The position numbers and the translations under genes were made by a program. Shown here piece after piece: positions 17,255 to 24,538 of a stretch of 64,000 nt of DNA (the stretch's first letter is position 1; each line of letters starts with the position of its first letter). The stretch spans positions 1,364,001 to 1,428,000 of the forward strand of contig NZ_CP066339.1 in NCBI RefSeq assembly GCF_016406125.1. The letters run 5' to 3'. The DNA is from Alicyclobacillus sp. SO9. GTDB taxonomy: Bacteria > Bacillota > Bacilli > Alicyclobacillales > Alicyclobacillaceae. Below the pieces are notes generated by a model. It saw nothing but the letters and a program-made list of their open reading frames with translations, was not told the origin of the DNA and made no database searches.

Positions 17255-18418
17255 TTATCTGCTCACATACGTACTGTTAATTTCCCTGACCTTGCTGAAC
17301 CCCGACAGAGCCAACTGCAAATCCAGCTCAGCTTTCCACTGCATGAGCAGTTCCTCTACTCCCTCCTGACCTCCGACACCGAGAGCATAAGCGTACGGCC
17401 TTCCAAGCAGTACCGCTTTGGCCCCAAGCGCAATGGCCTTATAAACATCTGCGGCGCACCGGATACCGCTGTCCATCAGCAAGAGGTAATCGGGTCCCAC
17501 GGCCTGACGTACAGGGCTCAGTGCATCAATGGCCGCAATGCCGCCGTCTACTTGCCGTCCGCCGTGATTCGAGACAATGACCCCATCCATGCCCATGAAC
17601 TGAGCCTGTCTCGCATCCTCTGGATGAGTAATCCCTTTGACGAGGATAGGAAGTTTGGTCCAGGTCCTCAATTCTTCCAGGTCGTCCCATGAGAAGGCGG
17701 GATTTACATAGACTTTCAGGAATTCTTCGATTGCGGCGCTCGGATTATTCTGCGGGGGCTCGTCGAGTCTGGATAAAAAAGCGGGATCGGACATAAAGTT
17801 TGCTACGCCTTCACCTTGCAGAAATGGGAGGTACACGTTGCTAAGGTCCTGGGGGCGCCAACCCAACATGGTTGTATCGACGGTCACAACCAGTGCAGAG
17901 TATCCAGCTTGTTCGGCGCGGGTGATAAAACTTCGAATAATATCTTTGTCAGTGCCGGGATAAAGTTGAAACCAACGTACTCCTTCTCCCATTACTTTAG
18001 CGATTTCTTCAATGGTGAAGGAGGACACAGTGCTTAAAATAAATGGAACCTCTTGGTTGTATGCAGCCTTTGCTGACGCTAATTCTGCGTCTTTATGGAT
18101 AATCGACTGCACACCAATTGGGGCGAGGAGCAAAGGGGTGGGAAAGTCTTGCTCCAGGAGACGCACACTTAAGTCGCGAGTTTCCACATTGCTCAGCATT
18201 CTTGATTGGATTGCATACCGCTCAAAAGCAGACCTGTTGTGCCGCATGGTTTGCCCCATACCGGCACCTCCGTCTACATAGCCGAATGGGCCAGCATCCA
18301 AACGCTGTTTTGCCTCCTCTCTCCACCCATCTGATGTGACGGGCCACGGCCATTTGGAGACGCCTTTCAGTGCAGACGAGTAGATTCTAAGTTCTGCTTC
18401 ATATCCGTATTGTGTCAT
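17255..18418 (-). CDS. FMN-dependent alpha-hydroxy-acid oxidase (lactate monooxygenase-like)
   Basis: Flavoprotein of 387 residues in the glycolate oxidase/LldD family. FMN-binding and catalytic blocks are visible: LLLAPIGVQSIIHKDAELASAKAA, VVTVDTTMLGWRPQDLSNVYLPFL and SNHGGRQVDGGIAAIDAL with the catalytic His, then DSGIRCAADVYKAIALGAKAVLLGRPY. The long insertion after WRPQDL is typical of the lactate 2-monooxygenase/lactate oxidase subgroup. It oxidises L-2-hydroxy acids, producing a 2-oxo acid or decarboxylated product. It is divergent from the dead Cas12f gene across 266 bp. Confidence 0.9.
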   Translation of the reverse strand: MTQYGYEAELRIYSSALKGVSKWPWPVTSDGWREEAKQRLDAGPFGYVDGGAGMGQTMRHNRSAFERYAIQSRMLSNVETRDLSVRLLEQDFPTPLLLAPIGVQSIIHKDAELASAKAAYNQEVPFILSTVSSFTIEEIAKVMGEGVRWFQLYPGTDKDIIRSFITRAEQAGYSALVVTVDTTMLGWRPQDLSNVYLPFLQGEGVANFMSDPAFLSRLDEPPQNNPSAAIEEFLKVYVNPAFSWDDLEELRTWTKLPILVKGITHPEDARQAQFMGMDGVIVSNHGGRQVDGGIAAIDALSPVRQAVGPDYLLLMDSGIRCAADVYKAIALGAKAVLLGRPYAYALGVGGQEGVEELLMQWKAELDLQLALSGFSKVREINSTYVSR

Positions 18419-18611
18419 TGGTTTTAGTTCAGCCCTTTCAGTGCTTTTGTACTGGCACGTGTCACCCCCATTCTAGAGGAAGTTGAAGAATAAGAAAATT
18501 AAAACATCTTTGCCTTGAGATTGTGCGCCATTTGCTAGGCCTGCAGTCATCCGTTATATGGGAATGAGATTACTACCCTCACTATAAAGCATCAAAATTC
18601 ATAAGGAAGTG

Positions 18612-18630
18612 TTATATAATTTATGTGAAC
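18612..18630 (+). promoter_or_regulatory. -10-like TATAAT and repeat upstream of the Cas12f homologue
   Basis: TTATATAATTTATGTGAAC contains a consensus TATAAT at 18615-18620, 64 bp before the Cas12f start; the -35 is not obvious. A similar sequence occurs after the gene at 19986-20005. Confidence 0.5.
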
Positions 18631-18684
18631 TTTCTATGACAAGATTGCCGGACTCTTGCGCCTGCGCGGCGAGGTGACATCTTT

Positions 18685-19968
18685 ATGACACAACACATCA
18701 GAGTCATGCAATACCAGATTGTAAAACCCTGTAACGGTGACTGGAGTACTCTTGCAAAGGTCCTTAGTTATTTGCAAAATGCAACCAGACAAGTTCTGAA
18801 CAAGACCATACAATTATGCTGGGAATGGCAGGGGTTTGGCAGTGACTATAAGAGAAAGTTTGGGGAAAATGCTGTTGACCGCGAGCTTTTGGGATACAGC
18901 CTGTTTGGGTTTTGCTACCATCAGTTGCGACAAGAATTTCCCCTGATACACAGCAGTAACATTTCTCAATCCATTCAAAGAGCCGTATTACGTTGGAACT
19001 CAGATGCACCTGAGATTTTGAATGGAGTGAAATCGGTTCCGTGCTACAAACGGGGTGTCGGTGTGGACCTGCACAAGGATACCGTGCGTCTCAAGAGAGG
19101 TAAGAACAATGAGTTCGTTGTCAGTATGAACCTCCTGAGCTTAATTGGAAGAAAGGAATTTGGATTTAAATCCGCTGCGTTGGATACTGTGATAAAAGTT
19201 GCCGACGGTAGGCAACGTCAAATCTTTAGTCGGGTATTATCTGGTGAGTATGGTCTGGGAGCATGTCAGATTGTCTGCCATAAGCGCAAATGGTTCTTGC
19301 AAATGAGATACAAGCTGGCTGTGAAAGAGCGTCAATTGAATTCGAATCATATCCTGGCTGTACGAATGGGAATAGAACGGCCGCTGTACATAGCATTCAG
19401 CCACACGTCGTCTCGCGTCACTCTCAACGGTGATAACGTTACTGCATTTCGAAAGAAATTCATGGCCCGGTATGCAGGTATGATAAGACAGAAAACCATG
19501 CAGGGCGGAGGGAACATCGGCCGCGGTAAAGCAAAGAGATTCGAACGTATTGAGTCCATGCGCACGAAAATTTCGGGCTTCCAAAAGTCACTGAATCATA
19601 AATACAGTAGAATCATTGTGGAACAAGCTGTTCTGAACAGATGCGGAACGATCCAAATTGAATCACCAAATGTGATTCGCCGTCAGACTGCATTTCTAGG
19701 AAACTGGGCTTACTTTGACTTGAAGAGAAAAGTGGAATACAAAGCTCAGCAACTTGGCATTAAGGTTGTCTGTCTAAAGACTCGTGACTACGAGCAACGT
19801 TGCAGCCAGTGCGGACACTTGAATGCAGTAAGGGAGACTTCGAAGGTGCTTTCGGGAGCCTATGCACGAAGCTTTTTCTGTGAATCCTGCGGCTTATTGA
19901 CGACTGTGGACGAGAATGCCGTTCAAAATTTGACTCTGCCAAACAAACCGGTCATGTCGCAGGATTAG
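18685..19968 (+). CDS. Nuclease-dead Cas12f1 homologue
   Basis: The 427-residue protein aligns in memory end to end with compact Cas12f1, especially the 422-residue Acidibacillus enzyme: IVKP, LNKTIQLCWEWQGFGSDYK, SVPCYKRG, SGEYGLGACQI, NHKYSRIIV, GCGTIQ-like CGTIQIE and NWAYFDLKRKVEYKAQQLGIKV. Cas12f is an RNA-guided DNA nuclease with RuvC residues Asp, Glu, Asp. Here the first motif, normally MGIDLGV, reads LAVRMGI, placing Arg227 (codon CGA at 19363-19365) where Asp is required. Glu326 (IQIES) and Asp409 (VDENA) remain, as do the zinc-ribbon cysteines 373, 376, 399 and 402. The ORF is otherwise undamaged, which suggests selection for binding without cutting. A TnpB relative is the alternative name. 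No CRISPR array or cas1/cas2 is near. Confidence 0.88.
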   Translation: MTQHIRVMQYQIVKPCNGDWSTLAKVLSYLQNATRQVLNKTIQLCWEWQGFGSDYKRKFGENAVDRELLGYSLFGFCYHQLRQEFPLIHSSNISQSIQRAVLRWNSDAPEILNGVKSVPCYKRGVGVDLHKDTVRLKRGKNNEFVVSMNLLSLIGRKEFGFKSAALDTVIKVADGRQRQIFSRVLSGEYGLGACQIVCHKRKWFLQMRYKLAVKERQLNSNHILAVRMGIERPLYIAFSHTSSRVTLNGDNVTAFRKKFMARYAGMIRQKTMQGGGNIGRGKAKRFERIESMRTKISGFQKSLNHKYSRIIVEQAVLNRCGTIQIESPNVIRRQTAFLGNWAYFDLKRKVEYKAQQLGIKVVCLKTRDYEQRCSQCGHLNAVRETSKVLSGAYARSFFCESCGLLTTVDENAVQNLTLPNKPVMSQD

Positions 19969-19985
19969 CACCATAACTTAATGAC

Positions 19986-20005
19986 TTATATAAAATTACA
20001 TGAAC
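19986..20005 (+). repeat. Downstream copy of the TTATATAA...GAAC element
   Basis: TTATATAAAATTACATGAAC resembles 18612-18630, differing by a few bases and one extra base. It lies 18 bp after the Cas12f stop and could promote the structured RNA or be a degenerate repeat unit. Confidence 0.4.
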
Positions 20006-20631
20006 CTCACACGAACCGTTTTCACACGAATGCCTCTTCCCGTCTGGAAAGGCATGGTCTCAAACAACTCTCTCCGTGCCTAGGCGGATTTTGTGCCAAG
20101 GGTTTCAGTGCAAAATGAATCTACACTACCTTGCCGAGTGTCTGGCGTCCCATCCAGGGGCTGACCTCGGCTATAGGCCGCTGAGTCGACCTTACTTTTC
20201 TTTAGCTCACATACTAAACAATCTCTTCGCTTATTTCAATGTTTTCTGAGTGTCCTCAACATGTTACACGACGTGGGCTCCCTTTTTTCTTTTCTCTGTA
20301 ATACGTCAGGGCACTGACGTAACTGGACGGCTGTTGCCGTCGCGAGCCGCCGCCAGGCTGGTGCTGTCAGGGACTACTGTAAGGCGGTTCGTGCCTGGAA
20401 AGATCCCTATCGTCGAAGGGGCAATACAATTGTGATTTCAATGATAATAATGCTCCTGAGCCCACGTGACAATCCCTCTTCTTGCCTTTGTTCTGCTTTC
20501 GCGACTGCCAGTACTGCTCCATGAAAAATGGGCACTGGAGCGTTTAAGATGGTTGTTTGTTCTATTATTAATAAAAATTTAAGAGGATTTTAGCTGCATG
20601 TACGTAATATCTGATGAAACTCTGCCTTATA

Positions 20632-20663
20632 GAGTTTGAACGGAATTGAGTTTGAACGAAATT
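20632..20663. repeat. Two tandem 16-bp units
   Basis: GAGTTTGAACGGAATT (20632-20647) is repeated with one change at 20648-20663 in the AT-rich half of the intergenic region. Confidence 0.65.
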
Positions 20664-20696
20664 TGAGCTTTGAGGCAATCAATGTCGATAACAGGG

Positions 20697-20719
20697 TATT
20701 ACATTATCTACATGTAATA
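20697..20719. repeat. Inverted repeat TATTACAT/ATGTAATA
   Basis: Perfect 8-bp arms at 20697-20704 and 20712-20719 around TATCTAC. It could be an operator or hairpin upstream of the sigma-linked promoter element at 20853. Confidence 0.5.
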
Positions 20720-20852
20720 TGATAACAAAATCAAGCTTTATAAAATCCATAAATTTCATAATAATTATAGATGTTTGCAATTAGAGAACCTTATCTGGCT
20801 GTTGACGGAAAATAACTGCAGTTCTTCGCGGAGCGTTTTTGTTCAGTACCGG

Positions 20853-20900
20853 GGTTACCTTTTTGCACGGGGATGCCTTGATCTATAGCGAGGGACGGGT
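20853..20900 (+). promoter_or_regulatory. Promoter-like two-block element, copy A
   Basis: GGTTACCTTTTT (20853-20864), 25 bp, then AGGGACGGGT (20891-20900). An equally spaced copy occurs at 22072-22119. It precedes the first micropeptide and the sigma region-2 gene, so it is a likely promoter, perhaps recognised by the encoded sigma factor. Confidence 0.55.
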
Positions 20901-21040
20901 TCACCAAAACAGCTGAGCAGGGAAGAAGTGGGGCAGTGCACCGTCGTAAGCGCAGTCATTTCGTCGCAGAGTTGTGTCCAGTGAGGAGTAACTGATGGGA
21001 GACCGTAGTTGTGACTTGAACGACTGAGGGGGTGAGTTTC

Positions 21041-21118
21041 TTGAACAGCAATAACAGCCTATTTATTGTTATGCTACTCATCTTTATGATGAATCAGCAG
21101 AGTAATAGTTCCAACTAA
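21041..21118 (+). CDS. Membrane micropeptide, copy 1
   Basis: 25-residue peptide from TTG 21041 with GGGGGTGAG just upstream. It has a single hydrophobic stretch (FIVMLLIFMMNQQ) flanked by Asn/Ser-rich ends. A paralogue with the same ribosome-site arrangement lies at 22371. It is encoded immediately before the sigma region-2 gene. The family is not recognised. Conservation of both sequence and translation signals in two copies is the evidence that it is translated. Confidence 0.55.
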   Translation: MNSNNSLFIVMLLIFMMNQQSNSSN

Positions 21119-21119
21119 T

Positions 21120-21152
21120 GAGGGGCCGGACAGAAAACCTCCCGTCCCTCAA
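21120..21152 (+). repeat. Inverted repeat upstream of the sigma region-2 gene
   Basis: TGAGGG/CCCTCA arms with inner GGAC/GTCC form a hairpin between the micropeptide and the region-2 start. There is no T-run, so it could attenuate or stabilise the message rather than terminate it. Confidence 0.4.
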
Positions 21153-21175
21153 TTTGTACTTAGGGAGTGTGAATC

Positions 21176-21415
21176 ATGCCAGACAAAAGAGACATGGAGC
21201 AAGAAAGCTTGACAGAGTTGATAATTGACGCGAAATCAGGCGATAAGAGAGGCCAGGAGGAATTGTATCGAAGGTTCAAACCGATGATTTGTAAAATGGC
21301 TCACAGAATGAATTGGAATGATTGGGAAGATGCACAGCAAGAACTAATTTACGAGCTGTTCTTGGCAGCCCAACGGTTCGAACCCCATATAGACGCAGGC
21401 AATCAAGAGTTGTGA
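21176..21415 (+). CDS. Stand-alone sigma-70 region 2 protein (RsoA-like)
   Basis: 79-residue protein whose body (SLTELIIDAKSGDKRGQEELYRRFKPMICKMAHRMNWNDWEDAQQELIYELFLAAQRFEP) looks like sigma region 2, the part that binds core RNA polymerase and the -10 element, with no region 4. The size and makeup match RsoA, the partner of SigO in the two-subunit sigma factor of Bacillus subtilis. ATG 21176 follows AGGGAG. The partner would be the region-4 protein at 22792. It sits 1.2 kb downstream of the dead Cas12f gene on the same strand. Assignment is by pattern, not search. Confidence 0.7.
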   Translation: MPDKRDMEQESLTELIIDAKSGDKRGQEELYRRFKPMICKMAHRMNWNDWEDAQQELIYELFLAAQRFEPHIDAGNQEL

Positions 21416-21452
21416 AACGGCAATTCGAAGATTGTGGATACGTGTTAAATGC

Positions 21453-21475
21453 CCCTCTTTGAGGGTTCTTTTTTG
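21453..21475 (+). terminator. Rho-independent terminator after the region-2 gene
   Basis: CCCTC-TTT-GAGGG stem followed by TTCTTTTTT, 38 bp after the stop at 21415. It ends the first sigma-linked transcript. Confidence 0.8.
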
Positions 21476-21581
21476 TTTATTCACCGTAAGACATTTCTCA
21501 TCTCCTCCTTCACTTTTCCACAAGTACCTGTTCCAAGCTGTTTAGTGCGCTAGTTGACCTGTGAGTGAGTATGCAACGAAA

Positions 21582-21663
21582 CCAGCAGCCGTTGTCTGCT
21601 GGAACGAAGCGGAAGACTTCCCTGCTACCCGGATACCGGGCAGCACGTATCTCAGAACGAGAT
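21582..21663 (+). promoter_or_regulatory. Structured RNA leader with serial hairpins
   Basis: CCAGCAG/CTGCTGG (21582-21602), GGAA/TTCC (about 21611-21621), GCTACCCGG/CCGGGCAGC with one mismatch (21624-21644) and ATCTC/GAGAT (21649-21663) lie in a row before the AGGAGGTGA of the 71-residue ORF. They could be a cis-regulatory leader or a small RNA. I do not recognise a known riboswitch class. Confidence 0.45.
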
Positions 21664-21697
21664 TTGGCCATCCTGATGAGTAGGAGGTGAATTCAAA

Positions 21698-21913
21698 ATG
21701 TCCAAAAGAGACGAGGCGCGGTTGAGTTCTGATGACGAGTCAACAACAAAAACTTCGATGGGCAATCTTGCAGCAGACTGTAGAAGAACTTCTTTCGATG
21801 TGAGATATGCAGATAATACTGTCACGGCTTTCGAGTTTTTGAGACAACAACTCGCGACTGGAGAAATTACACTTGGTGAATATATGATGATTTGTCAGGG
21901 TATCACTTCCTGA
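21698..21913 (+). CDS. Hypothetical 71-residue protein with SHOCT-like C-terminus
   Basis: Small soluble protein with a very strong ribosome site (AGGAGGTGA at 21682-21690). The N-terminal half is Ser/Asp/Thr-rich; the C-terminal segment FEFLRQQLATGEITLGEYMMI resembles the short SHOCT helix pair often found at the ends of bacterial proteins. It lies between the two sigma fragments, behind a structured leader. No function is assigned. Confidence 0.6.
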   Translation: MSKRDEARLSSDDESTTKTSMGNLAADCRRTSFDVRYADNTVTAFEFLRQQLATGEITLGEYMMICQGITS

Positions 21914-22071
21914 TGTTTTTCAAGAAAGGTTCTAAGTCCCCTAGGTTCTAAGTGCCCTCCACAAAGTACCTGAATGCGGATTGTACCCGTGTGCCTGATG
22001 CGATGCGAGACTTCCCCTCAACGAAAACTATCTCTTGAACTTATCTACTCTATTTTTCTTTTTTCCTCATA

Positions 22072-22119
22072 GGTTACCTTTTTCAACGTTTACGTCTCTA
22101 TATATTGCAAGGGACGGGT
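22072..22119 (+). promoter_or_regulatory. Promoter-like two-block element, copy B
   Basis: GGTTACCTTTTT (22072-22083), 25 bp, then AGGGACGGGT (22110-22119), matching copy A at 20853 in both blocks and in the 38-bp block-to-block distance. It precedes the second micropeptide, the region-4 gene and the transporter. Confidence 0.6.
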
Positions 22120-22138
22120 CAAGCCAACCCGAGAAGAG

Positions 22139-22447
22139 GTGAGACAAATTTCCGAAGACTCGCCGCGGCACTACAAGGTGCCTCAATCCATTTGCGCATT
22201 GGAATCTTCTACACCGGTCCTGTCAAGACAATCATACGCGCTTTCTCTTGTCCTCATCCTCGTGATGCTGGTGATAGAGAAGATAGAGAAGATAGAGAAG
22301 ATAGAGAAGATAGAGAAAGACAAGTCAACTGGCAGGCATGTGCTTATTGAGAATATGGGAGGTGAGATCGATGAAAACGGACCACAACATGTTCATCATT
22401 CTGCTGCTTATCTTTCTGATGAATCAACAACAAGGAACCAGTTCTGA
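22139..22447 (+). CDS. Possible membrane peptide with EKI repeats (doubtful)
   Basis: Open frame of 102 codons from GTG 22139 with GAGAAGAG upstream. It contains one hydrophobic segment (SYALSLVLILVMLVI) followed by four EKI units encoded by a 9-bp tandem repeat. The layout of one helix plus a charged repeat recalls small YvrJ-type peptides, but similarity is not established. Its last quarter overlaps the better supported micropeptide at 22371 in another frame, so it may be shorter or not a gene. Confidence 0.3.
   Translation: MRQISEDSPRHYKVPQSICALESSTPVLSRQSYALSLVLILVMLVIEKIEKIEKIEKIEKDKSTGRHVLIENMGGEIDENGPQHVHHSAAYLSDESTTRNQF
22273..22317 (+). repeat. Five tandem copies of GATAGAGAA
   Basis: Perfect 9-bp units in a row (22273-22317), in frame with the doubtful peptide 22139-22447. 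A 9-bp period keeps the reading frame when copy number changes. Confidence 0.9.
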
Positions 22448-22451
22448 TTGA
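22371..22451 (+). CDS. Membrane micropeptide, copy 2
   Basis: 26-residue peptide from ATG 22371 with a near-consensus GGAGGTGA at 22358-22365. The core MFIILLLIFLMNQQ matches the core of the peptide at 21041, and both end in a short Ser-rich tail. It opens the second sigma-linked operon, and the next ORF starts directly after its TGA. Function unknown; a single membrane-spanning helix is predicted by eye. Confidence 0.65.
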   Translation: MKTDHNMFIILLLIFLMNQQQGTSSD

Positions 22452-22721
22452 TTGTCAGAATTGAATAAGGGGTGGCTGCTCGTCCCAGATATCAACGGAC
22501 AGGAGTTGTTAATGTTGATTACCAATCAGGAAAACCAACTAGATTTGCTGTGCATTTCAGTGCCGGGCCCCATTACGGTAGACATTCTGGGCAGTAAAAC
22601 AATTGATTTTGAAGTGCCGGAGCTTCGGTTATCCAGTACAGATACTCTGTCCCAAGAGCAAATGAACATTTTGCAAGTCATGATGAAATTAATGGCGCAG
22701 ATGAATCCTGAACAGAATTAG
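22452..22721 (+). CDS. Hypothetical 89-residue protein
   Basis: Small protein starting at TTG 22452, abutting the micropeptide stop, so translation is probably coupled. The sequence (GWLLVPDINGQELLMLITNQENQLDLLCISVPG, then a C-terminal helix LSQEQMNILQVMMKLMAQM) suggests a beta-rich core with a helical tail, with no signal or membrane segment. I do not recognise the family. Its place between a micropeptide and the region-4 protein suggests a role in that sigma system. Confidence 0.6.
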   Translation: MSELNKGWLLVPDINGQELLMLITNQENQLDLLCISVPGPITVDILGSKTIDFEVPELRLSSTDTLSQEQMNILQVMMKLMAQMNPEQN

Positions 22722-22791
22722 CAGTCTTACAAGCTCTTTGAAAACGCACTTGCATACCGATGACGACACCCTAATTGAGGGGGGAGGTTTC

Positions 22792-23202
22792 ATGACATTC
22801 CATAACAGCGACAGTTTTGACGCAGCAGCATTTGTGTATATTCGTTCATGTTTGATGGGGCGAGCGCACCGTTTCCGGGAGAGGCAGCTGATTCAAGTGA
22901 AAAGGGAACCTGCAATACTTAATGAACCGCTTCGTCAGAGTGAAAACAGTGCGGACAGACTCAGTCTGATTACTGCTTCGGACCCGCACTACGACCCGAA
23001 TCGAATTGCAGATTCCGTCACGTTGCAAGGTGCAATGCAGTGTCTTACGCCGAATGAGTTGAGAATCATCGAGGCCTTGTTTTTCGAAGGGGAAAAGGTA
23101 ATTCGTCTGTGTGAAACCTTACACGTTTCGAAAAACACGGTGTTAAAAACGAAGCGAAATGCGTTAAGAAAACTTCGTAGAGCCCTACAACAATTACAGT
23201 AG
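22792..23202 (+). CDS. Stand-alone sigma-70 region 4 protein (SigO-like)
   Basis: 136-residue protein from ATG 22792 with GGGGGGAGGT upstream; the ORF is open from 22738 but that start lacks a ribosome site. The C-terminal domain LTPNELRIIEALFFEGEKVIRLCETLHVSKNTVLKTKRNALRKLRRAL is a sigma region 4 HTH that would read the -35 element. The N-terminal half (YIRSCLMGRAHRFRERQ) could be a linker-region remnant, and region 2 is absent. Together with the region-2 protein at 21176 it would form a two-subunit sigma factor like SigO-RsoA. Family placement is by pattern. Confidence 0.7.
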   Translation: MTFHNSDSFDAAAFVYIRSCLMGRAHRFRERQLIQVKREPAILNEPLRQSENSADRLSLITASDPHYDPNRIADSVTLQGAMQCLTPNELRIIEALFFEGEKVIRLCETLHVSKNTVLKTKRNALRKLRRALQQLQ

Positions 23203-23627: not shown

Positions 23628-24538
23628 CACGTCTAGTCATAATGGTGCTCATCGGGTTCTTTGCTCAGATGTTGGACGGATCACTGGGGATGTCATATGG
23701 AGTTTCGACTACGACTTTCCTTTTATTATCAGGTCTAGCCCCTGCGGCCGCGTCTTCCGTGACACATATGGCAGGTGTTGCGACGACTACGGCTTCAGGA
23801 TTGTCGCATTGGAAGTTCCACAATCTCAACAAACGTCTCGTGAAAGGCATTGTTGTACCAGGTGCAGTCGGAGCCTTTTTGGGAGCATTTTTCCTGACGA
23901 GTATCCCCGGGGACATTATTAAGCCGTACATTGCTACGTTTTTGCTCTTGCTCGGGTTCTATATTTTGATTCGCTTTCTGGTAGGAGATCACCGTAAAAT
24001 TCATCACAAGAACAGTGTTGCACATGGAGACGTAACACTGAAACGGCGATTTCTTATTCCATTGGCGCTCTTGGCCGGGTTTATGGATGCTATCGGCGGA
24101 GGCGGGTGGGGTCCCTTAATGACGCCAATCCTGCTCACTCATCGTACCATGAAGGCACGCAGGGTAATTGGTTCGGTGGATACCAGCGAAATTGCGGTTG
24201 TCTTTTCGGGTGCAACGGCCTTTATTATCGCTCTGGGATTTCACGGAGTACATTGGCTGTGGGCGGGGGCAATTATGATTGGCGGTGTATTCGCAGCTCC
24301 GTTAGCTGCTTGGATAGTTAGAATACTTCCAGAATTCATTCTCGGTGTGGCGGTAGGCGGCATGATCATTCTCATGAACGTTCATACTCTACTGCACTCC
24401 GGCCACTTTCTACCAGCTTCATGGGACGCATCTGTGTACTCATCTCTTGTAACACTGTGGTTCTGTGCAATTGCCTTCGTTCTCTGGAGAAAACACGAGC
24501 AGAATTCACTGTCTTCGGAAACGGAGCAGTCCAGGTAA
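23624..24538 (+). CDS. TSUP family transporter (TauE/SafE)
   Basis: Membrane protein of 304 residues with about eight helices and the duplicated TSUP pattern: FFAQMLDGSLGMSYGVSTTTFLL in the first half and GFMDAIGGGGWGPLMTPILL in the second. The family exports or imports sulfite, sulfoacetate and related anions. It overlaps the repeat protein by 4 bp and is last in the region-4 sigma operon, so it may be a sigma target. A substrate cannot be deduced. Confidence 0.88.
   Translation: MTRLVIMVLIGFFAQMLDGSLGMSYGVSTTTFLLLSGLAPAAASSVTHMAGVATTTASGLSHWKFHNLNKRLVKGIVVPGAVGAFLGAFFLTSIPGDIIKPYIATFLLLLGFYILIRFLVGDHRKIHHKNSVAHGDVTLKRRFLIPLALLAGFMDAIGGGGWGPLMTPILLTHRTMKARRVIGSVDTSEIAVVFSGATAFIIALGFHGVHWLWAGAIMIGGVFAAPLAAWIVRILPEFILGVAVGGMIILMNVHTLLHSGHFLPASWDASVYSSLVTLWFCAIAFVLWRKHEQNSLSSETEQSR

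Follow-up and report, generated by a model that had tools for sequence, protein, structure and literature searches.

We identify in Alicyclobacillus sp. SO9 a compact CRISPR effector that appears to have lost its nuclease activity and kept its guide RNA. The locus lies in a 64,000-nucleotide stretch of contig NZ_CP066339.1 (positions 1,364,001 to 1,428,000; hereafter the window, whose own coordinates we use) and comprises a Cas12f1 homolog with an Arg in place of the first catalytic Asp, beside a homolog of the Cas12f1 trans-activating CRISPR RNA (tracrRNA). We suggest, with a probability of roughly 0.7, that this is an exapted RNA-guided DNA-binding regulator in which effector and guide RNA were exapted together. 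The features that can be read directly, at the level of sequence, are the dead site, the intact frame, the homologous scaffold, the grouping of dead proteins in a clade, purifying selection acting on two of the dead relatives, and a shift of constraint within the protein. Because the window and three relatives each combine a dead site with a single guide RNA of their own, these proteins probably bind selected DNA in order to regulate it, not to cleave it.

From this we infer RNA binding, an exact guide, DNA binding, and repression of a regulated gene. In this reading a CRISPR-Cas12f1 effector would have been co-opted jointly with its guide RNA: the protein would still bind a tracrRNA-derived scaffold, now joined to a single repeat and a single fixed guide, and the complex would form an R-loop at the chromosomal site that the guide matches. 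Cutting would be impossible because Arg replaces the first RuvC metal ligand; occupancy of a promoter or early-transcribed region would most likely repress the gene, a natural one-guide form of CRISPR interference (CRISPRi).

The effector is defined by two features:
18685..19968, plus strand: nuclease-dead Cas12f1 homolog of 427 residues (open reading frame call, homology, alignment, fold search, PADLOC model)
19363..19365, plus strand: codon CGA, Arg227, replacing the first RuvC Asp (alignment, codon reading)

The frame begins with ATG, and its best PDB match is AsCas12f1 (8dzj/8j12/7wju; E about 1e-94, query residues 5-421, 38% identity), the type V-F effector of Sulfoacidibacillus thermotolerans; the PADLOC Cas12f model matches at E 1.5e-95. 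Foldseek with an AlphaFold2 model (mean predicted local distance difference test score 82.6, predicted template modeling score 0.56) placed AsCas12f chains on top (E 3e-43, 37% identity), so that in both sequence and predicted fold the protein is a Cas12f1 effector. Window residues AVRMG stand opposite GIDLG of 8j12, which puts Arg227, the final residue of the first RuvC strand in the predicted model, at the position of AsCas12f1 Asp225; its codon shares no base with GAT or GAC at any of the three positions. The other two RuvC acids have their counterparts in Glu326 and Asp409, and the four cysteines of the zinc-ribbon CxxC...CxxC are intact, giving a triad of Arg-Glu-Asp where type V-F has Asp-Glu-Asp. 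Residues 215-240 contain no Asp, although Glu215 and Glu231 lie there. An earlier note, made from the window's letters alone, had claimed a full-length 427-codon Cas12f1-like frame, Arg227 at the first RuvC Asp, a multi-base change, and retention of Glu326, Asp409 and the cysteines; all of this holds, and the structure prediction and alignment that it proposed as a check returned the AsCas12f fold and no Asp at residues 215-240. We conclude that the window protein is confirmed, by alignment and predicted structure, as an AsCas12f1-type Cas12f with a destroyed first RuvC metal-ligand site. Its own genome has no second match to it at E <= 0.001.

To place this protein among its relatives we searched overlapping genome sets at the level of family (41), order (59) and class (398), a genome-contig collection (14 loci) and viral contigs (10 loci). 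One alignment of 29 rows included 26 with a readable first RuvC site, the fragments L070, L072 and L082 lacking it; the residue was Asp in 22 of the 26 and another in four, counts that are not independent given near-identical pairs (L080 and G004 are identical). Four plasmid and two phage matches to the protein stand outside this tally. All four non-Asp proteins belong to the window's family: the window protein; L014 (also L064; metagenome-assembled genome (MAG) clean1249, G040); L015 (also L071; Alicyclobacillaceae bacterium I2511, G039); and L016 of G027. Their first RuvC residues are Arg (CGA) in the window, Arg (CGC) in L014, Ser (AGC, one base away from CGC) in L015, and Arg (CGT) in G027, where the second and third sites have also changed, Glu to Asp and Asp to Glu (triad Arg, Asp, Glu). 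About 20 residues are missing between the first two RuvC motifs of L014 and L015, and L015 has no zinc-ribbon cysteines.

In a maximum-likelihood tree of the 26 rows (25 different), the window protein, L014 and L015 form a clade (support 99/99) whose sister is the active Cas12f of Alicyclobacillus macrosporangiidus (93/87), and G027 pairs with G004 (96/84). The rows nearest to the window protein are AsCas12f1-type proteins, mostly beside arrays. Two or more independent inactivations, one in the clade of three and one in G027, are the simplest reading of this topology. We set aside a single clade of all four dead proteins (approximately unbiased test, p-AU 0.024; the group was chosen post hoc and the branches are long). 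The G027 protein (L016 9263-10540), separate from the clade of three, has a scaffold directly downstream. A first scan of the genome-contig collection with the window protein alone found no further dead relatives. The viral contigs held no further dead relative (nine loci with Asp, one fragment); two other matches fell on contigs already in the set, and a clade-specific scaffold pattern gave no new dead relative.

The guide-RNA scaffold adjoins the effector gene:
20078..20192, minus strand: guide-RNA scaffold, Cas12f1 tracrRNA homolog, convergent with the gene (covariance model, fold test)
20211..20239, minus strand: weak promoter-like TTGAAA-17-TAGTAT before the scaffold (9/12 consensus matches)

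Covariance model R1, trained without the window on six tracrRNAs from four active genomes (As; three A. macrosporangiidus; G176; G235), matches the window once, at 20192-20078 on the minus strand (56 bits, E 9.6e-12). Genome-wide (5.29 Mb; 150 of the 281 first-look candidates were scored), the same scaffold was the only match listed at E <= 10 (E 7.9e-10), and it folds better than shuffles (z -2.79). R1 scores 53.5 bits in G027 and, weakly, 26.3 bits in G039 (E 2e-4) and 20.6 bits in G040 (E 0.005); a tracrRNA-type scaffold is thus kept at 4/4 dead loci, and the last scaffold hairpin shares at least 26 identical bases in a row between the window and L014. A 27-sequence alignment, itself fitted to the structure, has standard pairs in 97% of its pair cells and more covariation than any of 500 shuffles. 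A second model (training includes the window, G027 and G039, and excludes G040), run with stricter filters that lose weak matches, found scaffolds in 6/41 family genomes, one per dead genome and five in A. macrosporangiidus. All six are among the seven genomes with a protein match, the seventh being G014, a distant match with Asp. The G027 scaffold lies 3' of its gene on the same strand. Rfam returned nothing at gathering scores over 18400-21200, and promoter-like sites of the type listed above are weak evidence alone (seven in 2.8 kb vs 4.5 in shuffles). The locus pictured in the earlier note stands in its dead reading frame; the adjacent tracrRNA-type RNA, as expected of type V-F, had been overlooked.

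Two further segments continue the scaffold:
20025..20077, minus strand: putative fused anti-repeat/repeat segment (comparison with L014, L015 and A. macrosporangiidus units)
19999..20020, minus strand: putative guide of ~20 nt, start uncertain by ~4 nt (analogy with A. macrosporangiidus units)

The RNA of L014 and L015 is preceded by a TATAAT-like box and encoded upstream of the gene, in the same direction. Its scaffold ends in a closing repeat-anti-repeat stem (z -3.24 in L014), after which come AAGGGAAAGTC[A/T]CAC[T/G]CCTCC and then a hairpin whose 12-base arms are perfect in both loci, maintained by changes on both sides. In A. macrosporangiidus 4/5 units are fused likewise and differ in sequence beyond GTGTTGTGGG; more repeats come after one of these four, and the fifth unit is truncated. 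At the window, L014 and L015, scaffold, repeat and one putative guide appear to make up a natural single-guide RNA. The five scaffolds accompanying the active A. macrosporangiidus Cas12f (L061/L017) are scattered, at positions 24196, 25912, 27547, 36324 and 50362 of G024:C69; this arrangement may represent a step that preceded the dead clade. The truncated scaffold (L137, G024:C69:36324-36431) is followed immediately by the apparent start of a TnpB-like frame.

Arrays accompany 20/21 full-length active loci and 0/4 dead loci in a repeat-cluster test, which covered 24, 5.3, 13.2 and 19 kb around the dead loci and left out three fragments, among them L082, which has an array. L061 and L065 reach only a low level and L067 has none; G280, outside this test, has 17 repeats counted separately. 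The array expected beside a type V-F effector is absent from window positions 8001-32000 by this test, and across the whole window the most repeated 20-mer, a GATAGAGAA microrepeat, occurs only three times. Cas1 is likewise absent (0/1 genome), in line with the earlier note's claim that array and cas1 are lacking.

Selection could be assessed on the dead pair L014 and L015, the two most similar members of the clade, which are 68.6% identical (pN 0.193, pS 0.719) and give a rough ratio of nonsynonymous to synonymous substitution rates (dN/dS) of 0.093. Both loci adjoin a heme A synthase-like gene, which we take to be ctaA, divergent from the guide RNA; for this neighbor dN/dS is 0.071. These values come from that pair, no close ortholog of the window gene having been found; the purifying selection that the earlier note proposed to look for among homologs is thus seen in two dead relatives. 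Neutral simulations remained free of stops in 0/200 runs at 68% identity (L014), 0/200 at 50% (window) and 2/200 at 82%. Among active proteins the RuvC half is better conserved in 186/186 pairs (186 of 190 kept, four close pairs excluded), with a ratio of N- to C-terminal identity of 0.39-0.89 and a median of 0.56. The median ratio against active proteins is 1.01 for the window protein, 0.99 for L014 and 1.2 for L015; the N and C halves are 42% and 31% identical between window and L014, and 78% and 52% between L014 and L015, whose dN/dS is 0.044 in the N half and 0.173 in the C half. In the clade of three, by these comparisons, constraint has shifted: it has moved off the nuclease half and persists in the half that binds guide and DNA.

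We searched for targets of the putative guides, using searches that would miss short-seed matches. The window guide's best non-self match within the window was 15/22; in its own genome a 16-base core with up to three mismatches gave 26 non-self matches vs 41 for a reversed control, and wider sequence context brought no improvement. One three-mismatch match in that genome, which we do not claim, is separated from a cytochrome b gene by 1.3 kb that include a signal-peptidase gene. The L014/L015 guide gave eight matches in eight genomes at up to three mismatches in 20: two are the guide itself and the other six, vs one for the control, all have three mismatches, one of them in G039, none in G040, and two being the same sequence in G024 and G025. 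A shorter form gave 47 non-self matches in G039 and G040 vs 52 for the control. Nor do we claim a G040 match (2 mismatches of 16) that precedes a cytochrome b gene by ~300 bp, as we estimate 1.6 such matches per genome by chance; G039 has only distant homologs of that gene, about 30%. The L014/L015 guide form has an exact 18-mer in one viral contig.

Several observations weigh against regulation by exaptation. No guide target was found, matches of the putative guide staying at control level, and regulation is therefore inferred. The window's repeat segment folds no better than shuffles (z -0.79, 20012-20090). Branches are long, 0.91 changes per column for the window, and the tree program flags them together with the odd letter make-up of L014, L015 and L016. 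A close ortholog of the window gene was not found in the family, order and class genomes or the genome-contig collection, dS between L014 and L015 is near saturation, and at 0.81 the N/C ratio of G027, the fourth of the dead proteins, falls within the active range. The missing array, target and close ortholog would also suit a decayed relic, in which loss of the array and mutation of the nuclease left gene and scaffold as functionless remnants; so would the loss of the zinc ribbon in G039. We nevertheless regard decay as unlikely, because the 427-codon frame is intact on its long branch where no neutral run stayed stop-free, two dead members are under purifying selection with the N/C constraint reversed, and all four dead loci retain the scaffold. 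The earlier note's interpretation is thus partly supported: its preference for exaptation over decay gains from scaffold, clade, selection and constraint, and no target was found for its regulatory part.

Exaptation for regulation must also be set against immunity by binding, in which a single guide would silence phage or plasmid. The window protein is of CRISPR-effector descent, and PMC10442227 describes Cas12m (type V-M) as having an altered RuvC triad and binding without cleavage, Cas12m2 protecting by silencing alone (a further Cas12m paper is PMC11013384). Cas12m, however, is an immune effector on a distant Cas12 branch (9-11% identity), and the window has a single guide and no array. The guide's best match was E 8 among 50,697 phage records and E 7 among 72,556 plasmid records, with no exact 18-mer in viral contigs, and the L014 and L015 guides are largely alike despite 69% protein identity; we consider such immunity very improbable. 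Persisting nuclease activity, with another residue standing in for Asp, seems to us barely credible: Glu326 and Asp409 are intact and Glu231 is near, but Arg occupies the metal-ligand site, no Asp lies at 215-240, and D225A is the inactive AsCas12f1 mutant in PMC12702181. Sigma-like genes lie 1.2 and 2.8 kb downstream of the dead Cas12f (21176-21415, region 2-like; 22738-23202, region 4-like), and an RNA-guided activator might recruit them. Natural dCas12f proteins reportedly partner with a sigma factor, a link that the earlier note mentioned. It does not apply here: the block at 21176-23202 is syntenic in G018, a genome without a Cas12f match, and no relative of the nearer protein was found in G027, G039 or G040 (E <= 1e-5; the region 4-like protein was not searched alone), which makes an activator of this kind highly doubtful.

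A regulator derived from Cas12f1 would resemble several known systems in part. The window protein shares with AsCas12f1 its whole-length sequence, predicted fold and scaffold; AsCas12f1, however, has Asp225 and a tracrRNA after the gene followed by a 19-repeat array, whereas the window has Arg227, no array, and a scaffold on the strand opposite the gene. A natural dead Cas12f-like protein with a guide RNA (dCas12f, PDB 9n9c/9n9m) is recovered at only 15% identity (fold search ranks 21 and 24; sequence E 2.3e-10), and the window has no linked sigma gene. TldR proteins, as described in PMC13418256, likewise combine a dead RuvC and a retained guide RNA with no transposon or array. They descend from TnpB, whereas the window protein belongs to the AsCas12f1 line and has a scaffold of tracrRNA type; searches with its putative guide gave no match above control level. 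Cas12f guides are treated in PMC13186708. The clade of window, L014 and L015 is not described in the titles and abstract openings of the open-licence literature surveyed, and may be described elsewhere.

We suggest, with confidence evenly divided, that a whole CRISPR module (effector, scaffold, and one spacer as a single-guide RNA) became a stand-alone, sigma-independent regulator in the Alicyclobacillus family, through at least two inactivations and perhaps by way of an active Cas12f with scattered single guides, of the kind that A. macrosporangiidus still has. If so, a bacterial regulator has arisen from a CRISPR effector together with its own guide RNA, as others have from transposon nucleases, possible intermediate stages survive within one family, and the order of array loss, guide fusion and loss of cutting becomes testable. 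Such dead Cas12f proteins, about 400 residues long and naturally equipped with a single guide, would also be useful as compact CRISPRi tools. As a separate observation, the split sigma-like pair at 21176-23202, a 79-residue region 2-like and a 154-residue region 4-like protein, is reminiscent of RsoA/SigO.
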